This document shows positions 44,298 through 62,353 of a stretch of DNA of 64,000 bases, one piece after another. Numbering within the stretch: position 1 is the stretch's first letter; every line of letters begins with the position of its first letter. Position numbers and translations under genes: made by a program. This DNA comes from Candidatus Lustribacter telmatis. Its GTDB lineage: Bacteria; Vulcanimicrobiota; Vulcanimicrobiia; Vulcanimicrobiales; Vulcanimicrobiaceae. The stretch lies in assembly GCA_003164045.1 (NCBI GenBank), contig PLRU01000018.1, positions 24,924-88,923 of the forward strand, given 5' to 3'. Below the pieces are notes generated by a model. It was given only the letters and a program-made list of their open reading frames with translations. It was not told the origin of the DNA and did not search any database.

Positions 44298-44462
44298 CCG
44301 GCCAATGGTTCGGACCGGAGTCCGTCCATCCCGGTCTGCGCAACCGTTTGAGCGGAGGCGCGGGCGGGAATAATGAGGCGGTCTGGCAGGCGACATGGTT
44401 GCGCCCCCTTTAGCAAGGGGGCTTCAAATGTCGCCCACGATCATCGTTTTTGGGGGAGCCCC
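44298..44462 (+). promoter_or_regulatory. dnaX/recQ divergent region with hairpin and masked ribosome site
   Basis: 165 bases. At 44403-44422 arms GCCCCCTT and AAGGGGGC enclose a TAGC loop (8 paired bases). The recQ ribosome site GGGGGAG (44452-44458) can itself pair with the following CCCC or with the CCCCC of that hairpin, so two foldings compete. CGGAC-cgga-GTCCG lies near 44311. No SRP RNA or tRNA is present, although the SRP RNA often sits beside dnaX. Confidence 0.45.
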
Positions 44463-46073
44463 GTGGAACTCTACGCTGCGCTGCGCGAGCGTTTCGGATA
44501 CGACACCTTCAACCCCGGTCAAGAAGAGGTCATCAACCGCGTTCTGGCCGGTGAAGATACGCTTGCCATCCTGGCCACCGGCGCCGGCAAATCGCTGTGT
44601 TACCAGCTCCCGGCGCTGCTGCTGCCCGGCACCACGGTCATCGTCTCACCGCTGATCGCGTTGATGAAAGATCAGCTCGACATGCTCGAAGCGCACGGCG
44701 TGCGCGAGACGGTCGCCTTGAACTCCACCCTGACCGAAGATCAAGAAGCGGCCGCCATCGCGCGCATCGCGTCGGGCGAGATGAAGATCGTGTTCGTCAC
44801 GCCCGAGAAACTCGAAGACGACGCGTTCGTCGCGATCCTGCAAAAGCTCACCGTGCCGCTGTTCGTGATCGACGAAGCGCACTGCATCAGTCAATGGGGC
44901 CACGATTTCCGGCCGGCGTATCTCAACCTCGGCCGGGTGATCGCGGCGCTGGGCAAACCGACCGTCTTAGCGCTCACCGCGACGGCCACGCCGGCCGTGC
45001 GCGAAGATATCCTCATGCAGTTGGGCGTGCCCGACGTGAAGCCGATCGTGCGCGGGTTCGACCGCCCGAGTCTCGTTTACAGCGTGCGGCGCGCGGAGAA
45101 CGAAGCGGGCAAACTGCGCGCGCTCAAAACGCTCTTCGAGAACAACGATCTCCAAGGCACCGGGATCATCTATACGGCGACGATCAAGAACGCGCTCGAA
45201 GTGCAGAAATATCTGCAAGACCATCTCGAAATTCCGGCCGCCGTCTATCATTCCAAACTGCAGAAGCACGACCGTATAGCCGTACACGAATTGTTCATGC
45301 AGGAAGCGATCAAAGCGGTCGTGGCGACGAACGCCTTTGGCCTCGGCATCGACAAGCCGAACATCCGCTTCGTCGTGCACTACGATCTGCCGGGCTCGAT
45401 CGAAGCGTATACGCAAGAAGCAGGTCGCGCCGGGCGCGACGGCAAGCCCTCAAAATGCATCCTCGTGTACCGCATGAGCGATACGCGCGTGCAGAACTAC
45501 TTCCTTACCGGCAAGTATCCGGACATCGAGGAAGTGCAGCGCGTGTTCGGCACGCTCGAGATCTTCGGCACGCAAGAAGGCGGCGTTTCGCTTACCGACC
45601 TGCGCAAGATCACGCAGCTCCCGATCACCAAGCTCAAAGTCGTGCTGGCGCTGCTCAAAAAGGCCGGCTTCATCGAGGCCTCGTCGCGTGCGAAGTACAT
45701 CCTCGCCAAGCACGCCAGCGTGGAGGCCGTGCTCGATCTCGCCAACTACGAGACGAAGAAGCGCTACGACCAATCCAAACTGGCGATGATGCTGCAGTAC
45801 GCCGAGACCACGTCGTGCCGGCGACGCTTTATCCTCAACTATTTCGGCGAGAACTACACCGCCGCTTCGTGCGGCGCGTGCGATAACTGTTTGCAGGGCC
45901 GGCGCGACCATGCGCTCTCCGGCTACGGCATCGCCGATGTCGTCTACCACACAAAATTTGGGCAAGGCACGGTGGAACGCGCCGAGAAGGACCTCGTAAC
46001 CGTTTTATTCCCGGCCGTCGGGTACAAGACGTTGCTGGCATCAGCCGTTTCGCGCGAGATGAAGATCGCCTAA
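44463..46073 (+). CDS. recQ: ATP-dependent DNA helicase RecQ with C-terminal Tudor-like domain
   Basis: About 536 residues. Superfamily 2 helicase motifs: TGAGKSLCYQLPALL (I), VIDEAHCISQWGHDFRPAY (II, DEAH) and QEAGRAGRDG (VI). RecQ-Ct zinc cysteines are in CRRRF...CGACDNC. Instead of an HRDC domain, the last ~45 residues (VVYHTKFGQGTVERAE, then VLFPAVGYKTLLASAV) match the Tudor-like C-terminal module of UvrD/PcrA (DUF3553). It unwinds DNA 3'-5' in recombination and repair. GTG 44463 follows GGGGGAG; the frame is open to 44373. Confidence 0.92.
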   Translation: MELYAALRERFGYDTFNPGQEEVINRVLAGEDTLAILATGAGKSLCYQLPALLLPGTTVIVSPLIALMKDQLDMLEAHGVRETVALNSTLTEDQEAAAIARIASGEMKIVFVTPEKLEDDAFVAILQKLTVPLFVIDEAHCISQWGHDFRPAYLNLGRVIAALGKPTVLALTATATPAVREDILMQLGVPDVKPIVRGFDRPSLVYSVRRAENEAGKLRALKTLFENNDLQGTGIIYTATIKNALEVQKYLQDHLEIPAAVYHSKLQKHDRIAVHELFMQEAIKAVVATNAFGLGIDKPNIRFVVHYDLPGSIEAYTQEAGRAGRDGKPSKCILVYRMSDTRVQNYFLTGKYPDIEEVQRVFGTLEIFGTQEGGVSLTDLRKITQLPITKLKVVLALLKKAGFIEASSRAKYILAKHASVEAVLDLANYETKKRYDQSKLAMMLQYAETTSCRRRFILNYFGENYTAASCGACDNCLQGRRDHALSGYGIADVVYHTKFGQGTVERAEKDLVTVLFPAVGYKTLLASAVSREMKIA

Positions 46074-46129
46074 TCGCCCGTGGCGGCGAGCCCAGCGCTT
46101 TTCCGAATCGTCGTTTTTGGAGTTTCCGT

Positions 46130-47833
46130 ATTCGCGCATTAGCGGCTATCGCCGGAGTGTGCCTGGTCGCTATGCTCGCCCCGGTCGCGAGCGCCCAGGT
46201 CAATCCACCGGCCCCGGCCCCGACCGGGCCGGTCAATCCGGCGATTCCGGTAAGCGAGCCGCCGGTCGCGCCGGCGACCCCGCAGCAGGCGCCGCCCGAC
46301 CAGGCCTCGCCGGCGCCGGGCGAGTCACCGCTCCCGGAAGCCACCGAAACGCCCACCGCGCAGCCGACGCCCACCCAACCGCCGATCGTCGTCGAACCGG
46401 CGACGCCCGCGGTCGAGCCCGGCCGCACCGTGTCGGCGCGGGTCAACAGCGCGGCCGGAACGATCACCGCGACCGCCACCGATCCGGCCATCGCCACGGT
46501 CACCGTCGACCAGACGCAGCGCACGATCCTCATCACCGGCGTCGCGGTCGGTTCCACAACCGTCACGGTCGGCGATAGCCGCGGCGTCACGCGCGACGTT
46601 GCCGTGCGCGTCGCGTATGCGGCCGGCACGATCGCGGACGCGCTGCAATTGCGCGTAACCGGCGACCCGGCGACGGTGACGTTTCTCCGCGACGCGGCGA
46701 TTACGGCCGCCGAGGCGGCGGCAACGCTGCGCACCGGCGCGCGCATCTACGTGCCGCCGGAATCCGTGGCCGTGCACGCCGCGCTGCCGACCGACGACCG
46801 CACCACGATCGACGTGCCGGTGCAGATCCTCGGCGACGCCTACATCACGGTGAGCGGCACGACGCGCATTTCGGTCGAGAACTACGCGCTGCCGCGCTTG
46901 GCACCAAGCCAGCTCCTGGTGAGCGATTATCCCGAACGCCTCACCGCCGACGGCGTGCTCTTCACCGCAACGATCGACCGCACGGCCTCGCAGCGGTTTC
47001 TGTATTATCACTTCAACCCGTCGACCGAACCCGCGCGGCGCATCCTCGTCAAGGCGACCAACTCGGGTGCGACGCCGGCCGTCCTGCATCTGCTCGCGGC
47101 GCTCGCCGGGCCCGGTTCAAACGAGATGGAAGTCGGCCACAACGCGACGCGCTCGTTCCTCATCCGGGCGCGCCGCAACGAAGGCACCGTCGTGACGATC
47201 CCGCCGAATTCCACCGTCAACATCGTCAACCACAGCCTGCCCCCGAATGCGGTCGTCAACGGCATCTTGCAAATGCGCGAACTCAGCGGCGACCCGCTCA
47301 ACATCGCGGTCGTCGCCCAGGGCGCCGATGCGCCGCTCGATCAGTCGGCCGATGCGGCGAACCTGCTCGCCGGGGGCGCACCGCACGCGCGCGGTGTGTA
47401 TCCGGTGCCGGAATTTTTCTCCGACTACACGTTCTTCACCGACGCACCGCCGCTCGAAATTCCGATCGGCCAGTTACCGCTGCCGAACCTGCGCAGCGGC
47501 GAGGCGCTCTCGGGCGATTACGGCGTGATGCAATCGGTGCGCGTCGTGATCGTCAACACCTCGAAGTTCGGTCAGGCGATCGCGCTCTACGCAAACCCGC
47601 GCGGCGGCGACGCAACCGCCACGTTCACGATCGACGACACGCTCGTCCAGGCGCACCGTCTCACCGCCTATTCACGCTATAAGATCTGGCAAGAAGTCAT
47701 CGCGCCCGGCACTTACCGTACGCTGCGCATCACGACGATGCCCGAGGGCGGCTCGTCCTATCCGCTGCGGCTGATCTTCGCCCAAGACGACGGCAGCGTC
47801 GTGCCCGGCGCGCCGGGTTCACCGGTCTACTAG
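46130..47833 (+). CDS. Secreted protein with bacterial Ig-like domain (probable ATT start)
   Basis: 567 residues from an ATT codon at 46130. Read from there it has a textbook signal peptide (IRALAAIAGVCLVAMLAPVA, cleavage near ASAQ) and GGAG 7 bases upstream. The first canonical codon, GTG 46157, would remove the basic end and half the hydrophobic core. After a Pro-rich linker (25-85) comes a BIG2-like Ig domain (VEPGRTVSARV...TITGVAVGSTTVTVGD type), then a ~400-residue beta-rich region of unknown fold. No membrane anchor is visible. Probably surface or periplasmic; function unknown. Confidence 0.78.
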   Translation: MRALAAIAGVCLVAMLAPVASAQVNPPAPAPTGPVNPAIPVSEPPVAPATPQQAPPDQASPAPGESPLPEATETPTAQPTPTQPPIVVEPATPAVEPGRTVSARVNSAAGTITATATDPAIATVTVDQTQRTILITGVAVGSTTVTVGDSRGVTRDVAVRVAYAAGTIADALQLRVTGDPATVTFLRDAAITAAEAAATLRTGARIYVPPESVAVHAALPTDDRTTIDVPVQILGDAYITVSGTTRISVENYALPRLAPSQLLVSDYPERLTADGVLFTATIDRTASQRFLYYHFNPSTEPARRILVKATNSGATPAVLHLLAALAGPGSNEMEVGHNATRSFLIRARRNEGTVVTIPPNSTVNIVNHSLPPNAVVNGILQMRELSGDPLNIAVVAQGADAPLDQSADAANLLAGGAPHARGVYPVPEFFSDYTFFTDAPPLEIPIGQLPLPNLRSGEALSGDYGVMQSVRVVIVNTSKFGQAIALYANPRGGDATATFTIDDTLVQAHRLTAYSRYKIWQEVIAPGTYRTLRITTMPEGGSSYPLRLIFAQDDGSVVPGAPGSPVY

Positions 47834-61516: not shown

Positions 61517-62350
61517 TTACCCCGCGCTTACCGCAACGGATGCGCGATCGACGAGCGAGCGCACCGCTTCGAAGTGCAGCGCATGACCGCTCTTGATCGC
61601 GATGACCTCGCACTGCGGATACGCGCCGAGTAAAGCGAAATCGCCGATCAGATCGAGCACCTTGTGCCGCCCCGGCTCGTCCGCAGCGCGCAGCGGCGAC
61701 ATCGGACCATCGGCATCGAACACGATCGCGTTGTCGAGCGAGCCGCCCATCGCGAGACCGCGCGCGAGCAGCGCTTCGACTTCGTGCCGGAACCCGAACG
61801 TGCGGTTCGGCGCGACCGCCGTGCGATACTCGGCCGAACGGCTGTCGTAGTCGACGTATTGCGAACCGACGGGCGGCGGAAAGTCGATCGTCATGCGCAC
61901 GCGAAACGCCGGCGCCGGGACGATGGCGAGCAGCTTGTCGCCGTCGCGAAACACGTGCGGCTCGCGCACCACGTTGCGCGGCTGCGGCAACGGCTGTTCG
62001 GCAACGCCGGCGGCGTCGATTGCGGCCACGAACTCGCGCGCACTGCCGTCGGCGGCGGGGATTTCGGGGCCGTCCACCTCGATCAGCGCGTTGGTCACGC
62101 CGCAGCCGAACAGTGCGGAGAGCAAGTGCTCGACGGTCGACACGCGATGTTCGCCCGAACCGAGCACGGTCGCGCGGCGCGTGTCCACCACGTAGTCGGG
62201 ATGCGCCGGAAACTCAACCGCATCGTCGAGCCGGAAACGCAGGCCGCTACCGGCCGCTGCCGGTTGGACGCGAACACGCGCGGGCCGGCCGGTATGCAGA
62301 CCGACGCCCGAAAATTCGATCGCGTTGCGGAGCGTTGCTTGATTCTGCAG
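61517..62350 (-). CDS. lpxC: UDP-3-O-acyl-N-acetylglucosamine deacetylase LpxC (non-canonical start)
   Basis: 277 residues when started at a CTG (62350). Homology begins at once: TLRNAIEFSGVGLHTGRPAR, then GEHRVSTVEHLLSALFG with the first zinc His, and GRHKVLDLIGDFALLG with the second His and Asp. It catalyses the committed step of lipid A synthesis. No ATG, GTG or TTG occurs in frame between the lpxD stop and the GTG pair near 62194, which would delete the conserved first ~52 residues. The lpxD TGA (62354-62356) is in the same frame, 3 bases away. Start by CTG, or UGA readthrough, is inferred. Confidence 0.88.
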   Translation of the reverse strand: MQNQATLRNAIEFSGVGLHTGRPARVRVQPAAAGSGLRFRLDDAVEFPAHPDYVVDTRRATVLGSGEHRVSTVEHLLSALFGCGVTNALIEVDGPEIPAADGSAREFVAAIDAAGVAEQPLPQPRNVVREPHVFRDGDKLLAIVPAPAFRVRMTIDFPPPVGSQYVDYDSRSAEYRTAVAPNRTFGFRHEVEALLARGLAMGGSLDNAIVFDADGPMSPLRAADEPGRHKVLDLIGDFALLGAYPQCEVIAIKSGHALHFEAVRSLVDRASVAVSAG

Positions 62351-62353
62351 GGT

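Follow-up and report, generated by a model that had tools for sequence, protein, structure and literature searches.

A secreted-protein gene of the Vulcanimicrobiaceae is probably translated from a near-cognate ATT start codon

Analysing a 64,000-nt stretch of DNA (hereafter the window) from Candidatus Lustribacter telmatis, an uncultured bacterium from soil that belongs to the Eremiobacterota, we found that a gene for a secreted or periplasmic beta-sandwich protein is likely to be translated from a near-cognate ATT codon at 46130–46132 (+ strand), placed by a GGAG Shine–Dalgarno motif at 46119–46122 (+ strand). Comparison between genomes points to this start on four counts: no canonical start is available upstream of the signal-peptide core, the position is homologous to the start of close relatives, near-cognate codons recur at the same gene, and the reading frame is under purifying selection. 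Initiation at ATT46130 would presumably take place with fMet.

The gene, its product and its neighbourhood

The gene (46130–47833, + strand, 567 residues) lies downstream of recQ (44373–46073, + strand; Pfam DEAD, Helicase_C and RecQ_Zn_bind), which neighbours it at orthologous loci and ends 56 nt 5′ of the ATT, and is convergent with a glycosyltransferase gene. The source genome (G000) comprises 5.0 Mb in 102 contigs, with an estimated contamination of 6.84%. Orthologues are present in 86 of the 99 genomes of the family and also across the class; the family has a cultured representative, Vulcanimicrobium alpinus (PMC9758169). Comparison with a sister species of the same genus (Candidatus Eremiobacterota bacterium isolate bog_1524; G001) gave a dN of 0.13 and a dS of 0.62, and the resulting dN/dS of about 0.21, averaged over both branches, indicates purifying selection.

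The predicted product is a secreted or periplasmic multi-domain protein. AlphaFold (39 sequences, mean pLDDT 84) predicts a proline-rich linker of low confidence followed by tandem beta-sandwich domains, in agreement with the 'Ig-like' label given in the first-pass annotation; as a family assignment the label is softer, as Big_2 (PF02368; residues 86–151) falls slightly under its Pfam cut-off and T2SS-T3SS_pil_N (PF13629; residues 117–161) lies above it, with 28.9 bits against a cut-off of 23. The protein resembles PF13629 secretin-like proteins in its N-terminal domain match, but beyond that region its AlphaFold model has further beta-sandwiches, and searches of Pfam and NCBIfam returned no secretin domain there and no model for the remainder of the protein. 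A fold search found no solved structure with a global match (query-length TM no higher than 0.15 among the hits listed), and because its beta-sandwich matches were only partial, we adopted no function from it. A distant paralogue with 29% identity is encoded elsewhere in the same genome (G000:C102:108241-109641), and many relatives carry similar second copies.

Wherever the end of recQ was found in the stretch fetched for an orthologous locus, the hydrophobic core starts 1–169 nt past the recQ stop codon, and the candidate starts of orthologues overlap or closely trail that stop. In many species (loci L057, L060, L064, L066, L067, L070 and others, in genera g36, g10 and g19), a TTG overlaps the end of recQ by 8 nt, reading AAA-TTG-C.. 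within the K-I-A-stop codons. The sequence arrangement in these relatives makes translational coupling to recQ likely.

An ATT behind GGAG opens a complete signal peptide

Read directly, the frame is free of stop codons from 45887 to its own stop codon at 47831–47833, and the preceding in-frame stop is at 45884–45886. Between that stop and GTG46157, the frame contains no ATG, GTG or TTG in the window. The first-pass annotation had described GTG46157 as the only canonical codon and as sitting in the middle of the hydrophobic core; direct reading bears this out and adds ATG46172, so that the first two in-frame canonical codons both fall inside the hydrophobic stretch AIAGVCLVAMLAPVA, with nothing upstream. 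The proposed GGAG, 7 bases 5′ of ATT46130, is likewise exact, with TTTCCGT as the spacer. Translation from ATT46130 would, as had been claimed, give a complete signal peptide of 22 residues (46130–46195, + strand): the predicted N-terminus is MRALAAIAGVCLVAMLAPVASA/QVNPP or, written with an initiator Met, (M)RALAAIAGVCLVAMLAPVASA/QVNPP, with an AxA cleavage site preceding Q (46196–46198), and orthologues keep both the hydrophobic core and the AQ junction. A near-cognate codon with a four-base Shine–Dalgarno match at 5–8 nt and no more than 14 codons from the core arose in 1.5% of dinucleotide shuffles of the window locus; a single four-base motif of this kind is modest evidence taken alone.

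Two other candidates were set aside. A 20-codon open reading frame from GTG46080, ending at TAG46140 across the ATT, was dropped because G001 has no equivalent, and TTG46117 is in a different frame and has no Shine–Dalgarno motif.

The ATT occupies the position of a TTG in close relatives

Directly after recQ, G001 reads ATG-CCG-CGG-AGG-TCC-GTA-TTG-CGT-CGC-GCG, with GGAGG 6 bases before the TTG. Aligned with this region, the window shares GGAG..TCCGTATT and the identical codons GCG GCT ATC GCC that follow, with a net 4-nt gap at the TTG of G001; the TTG is gone, and an ATT stands in frame at the same place. Orthologues from genus g9 that reach this far have TTG-CGA-CGC, mostly behind AAGGAG. 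Because ATT46130 aligns with the TTG of G001 and with that of g9, its position is probably that of the ancestral start, and the TTG of these close relatives is probably the ancestral start codon of the gene. The comparison of N-termini in close relatives that the first-pass annotation had called for therefore places a TTG behind a Shine–Dalgarno motif at the homologous position in both G001 and g9. The same annotation had named an ATG or GTG further upstream in orthologues, or a start at 46157, as findings that would count against the ATT. Neither emerged for the window genome: the ATG that G001 also has, six codons above its TTG, lacks a counterpart in the window.

Near-cognate starts recur at orthologous loci

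We compared 85 orthologous loci. At four of them the 30 codons nearest the core hold no canonical start, and all four carry a near-cognate codon at Shine–Dalgarno spacing behind GGAG. These are the window (GGAG-7-ATT), G023 (AGGAG-5-ATA) and two species of one genus, G007 and G061 (GGAG-7-CTG, with CTG-CAC-GCA common to both). At four further loci (G085, G086, G096 and G072), a CTG follows a good Shine–Dalgarno motif, and the canonical codons there have none; where G085 and G086 have this CTG, their congener G087 has a GTG preceded by GAGGAG. Across the 85 loci, a near-cognate codon with a Shine–Dalgarno motif occurs at 8, against 1.33 expected from shuffles (Poisson p 8e-5), and a canonical codon with such a motif at 17, against 1.11 expected; none of the 85 has both. 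The near-cognate arrangement tends to occur where a canonical start is missing (Fisher p 3e-5). Both tests take loci as independent, and the 8 loci represent about six genera. The identity of the codon is not conserved among orthologues, being ATT here and TTG, GTG, ATG, ATA or CTG in relatives. Given the ATA and CTG codons that relatives have at the corresponding position, unusual start codons appear to have arisen repeatedly in the lineage.

This recurrence bears on whether the ATT is genuine. A normal start could be concealed by a rare strain variant or by a mistake in the assembly or consensus, either because the true base triplet at 46130 is ATG or because the gap hides a TTG such as that of G001. 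A single substitution separates the ATT from ATG and its context is otherwise perfect, the assembly is in 102 contigs with the contamination given above, and the base at 46130 is known from one MAG only. Per-base errors are nevertheless rare in a polished short-read consensus, and ATA and CTG occur independently in relatives, with the CTG shared by two congeneric species; we consider an error or variant unlikely.

We regard initiation at GTG46157 (46157–46159, + strand) or ATG46172, yielding a leaderless or shortened protein, as a little less probable still. GTG46157 is the first in-frame canonical codon, and GTG makes up 39% of starts in the genome by a rough count. It lies, however, within the hydrophobic core and would leave a leader of 13 residues without a charged n-region, whereas orthologues start before the core and have Arg or Lys residues in between. 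As orthologues keep this n-region, a start at GTG46157 would remove a conserved part of the protein. Moreover, the codons upstream of the GTG are conserved with G001, and the GGA directly abutting it is too close to act as a Shine–Dalgarno motif. Least probable, and very improbable in itself, is that the gene, having lost to an indel the start codon that the sister species retains, is a pseudogene in the making with little or no translation, given that the 567-codon frame is intact, that dN/dS is low (as averaged over both branches) and that GGAG is retained at proper spacing to the ATT. The reading that we prefer remains initiation at ATT46130.

Near-cognate starts at other genes of the lineage

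As a positive control, we located the start of infC, the classic near-cognate gene, in the family and one neighbouring family (loci L133-L150, including L143, the G000:C99:32286 region). All 18 genomes checked have a near-cognate start, ATA in 14 and ATC in 4, in the conserved context I-A-R-P-L-R-V/I-N-D/E-Q and typically behind GGAG. For the neighbouring glycosyltransferase, the conserved N-terminus begins exactly at a GTG, ATG or TTG in 38 of 42 loci; at two (L008 in G018 and L049 in G114) the codon there is ATT or ATC and the 20 codons upstream contain no canonical one, and at two more it encodes Ile or Leu, a GTG lying two or three codons further upstream. Starts are canonical at all 30 fabZ loci and at 29 of 30 lpxA loci. 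The remaining lpxA locus (L172, in G006) has TCG where its 29 relatives have ATG, GTG or TTG before I-H-P; the gene may instead begin at the ATC that follows or at an upstream ATG.

In the window itself, lpxC (61517–62353, − strand) very probably starts at a CTG (62350–62348): an in-frame TGA (62356–62354) precedes the CTG by one codon, no ATG, GTG or TTG follows until codon 54, and the CTG is kept in G001, with GTG at the position in several g9 genomes. Homology to LpxC begins at residue 5, and the TGA ends the preceding gene, probably lpxD. The infC, glycosyltransferase and lpxC examples thus place near-cognate starts at several genes of the family, a hint that the lineage uses them more often than is usual. 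In Listeria, 6 of 2265 conserved genes have a fixed non-canonical start (PMC13068326); beside that published set the near-cognate rate here looks raised, in a small sample of genes that were in part selected post hoc. To the broader proposal, that ordinary genes across the family (the envelope gene lpxC, the glycosyltransferase and the secreted protein among them) use near-cognate starts at the per-cent level in free turnover with GTG and TTG, leaving N-termini miscalled, we give somewhat less than an even chance. If it is true, standard gene callers would truncate or miss N-termini lineage-wide, because the starts would turn over in this way.

Genome-wide background was sampled coarsely. A home-made gene caller run on 428 kb of G000 gave start codons of 49% ATG, 39% GTG and 12% TTG as a rough count; on 400 kb of G009, at 69% GC, the caller was unreliable. 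Of the codons that follow GGAG in G000, ATG and GTG are enriched and near-cognates are not, in a comparison of low power. N-terminus comparison of G000 with G009 covered 18 pairs only, and the translated-search comparison of G000 with G001 was blurred by conserved out-of-frame DNA. An altered initiator tRNA was rejected as a cause: its anticodon stem, GGGCTCATAACCC, is of the standard type and occurs once in G000.

Proposed mechanism

We propose that GGAG would position the 30S subunit on the AUU, where the initiator tRNA could pair with two of the three bases. As only two bases would pair and the complex would be held by the Shine–Dalgarno contact, initiation would probably be weak, and IF3 would probably be able to reject it; the low yield and IF3 sensitivity suggested in the first-pass annotation would be expected here by analogy. 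Ribosomes that finish recQ 56 nt upstream may help initiation at the ATT, such that translation of the secreted protein may be coupled to that of recQ. The 4-nt deletion would have taken away the ancestral TTG and left the ATT in its place. More generally, a low need for the protein, together with a start that in many relatives is near or overlaps the recQ stop codon, may free the codon to drift among TTG, GTG, CTG, ATA and ATT.

Significance and relation to known near-cognate starts

Apart from infC, rather few bacterial genes are documented to have near-cognate starts, and most of these were found by experiment. Across the 85 orthologous loci such a start is indicated from sequence alone, with ATT, ATA, CTG, TTG, GTG and ATG interchanging at one gene. 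This pattern suggests an annotation problem across the phylum, in the form of truncated signal peptides, and offers a natural series for asking what makes weak starts tolerable in a lineage whose initiator-tRNA anticodon stem looks normal.

The first-pass annotation had cited infC as the known case of ATT starts; it is not the sole one, as pcnB, cvfC1, ccpN and sigR also have near-cognate or non-canonical starts. Like infC (AUU, AUC or AUA, and ATA or ATC in this lineage), the secreted-protein gene has a near-cognate ATN codon behind a Shine–Dalgarno motif; infC, however, has a conserved start and is autoregulated through IF3, whereas the codon of the secreted-protein gene differs from genus to genus, with no feedback loop in evidence. 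Escherichia coli pcnB resembles it as a single gene outside infC with an AUU start, which is reported to limit translation (Binns and Masters 2002, as cited in PMC13009471), but encodes an unrelated cytoplasmic enzyme that is not secreted. In Staphylococcus aureus, cvfC1 (AUU) and ccpN (AUA) share the ATT or ATA start and have strong Shine–Dalgarno motifs; in poor medium, AUU and AUA sites there reach about 10% of the yield obtained with AUG, and ccpN reaches up to 30% in rich medium (PMC13009471). Codon and extended Shine–Dalgarno motif are conserved in those two genes, whereas here a drifting codon follows a plain GGAG. Streptomyces sigR has a GTC start that is repressed by IF3 and conserved in 32 of 34 species; it too is a non-canonical start, found by careful mapping of the N-terminus, but belongs to a regulatory sigma factor (PMC5472188). 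Judged by its sequence context, the secreted-protein gene would be a further member of the known class of genes with near-cognate starts, to which the recurrence of such starts at the gene and their appearance at other genes of the family add value.
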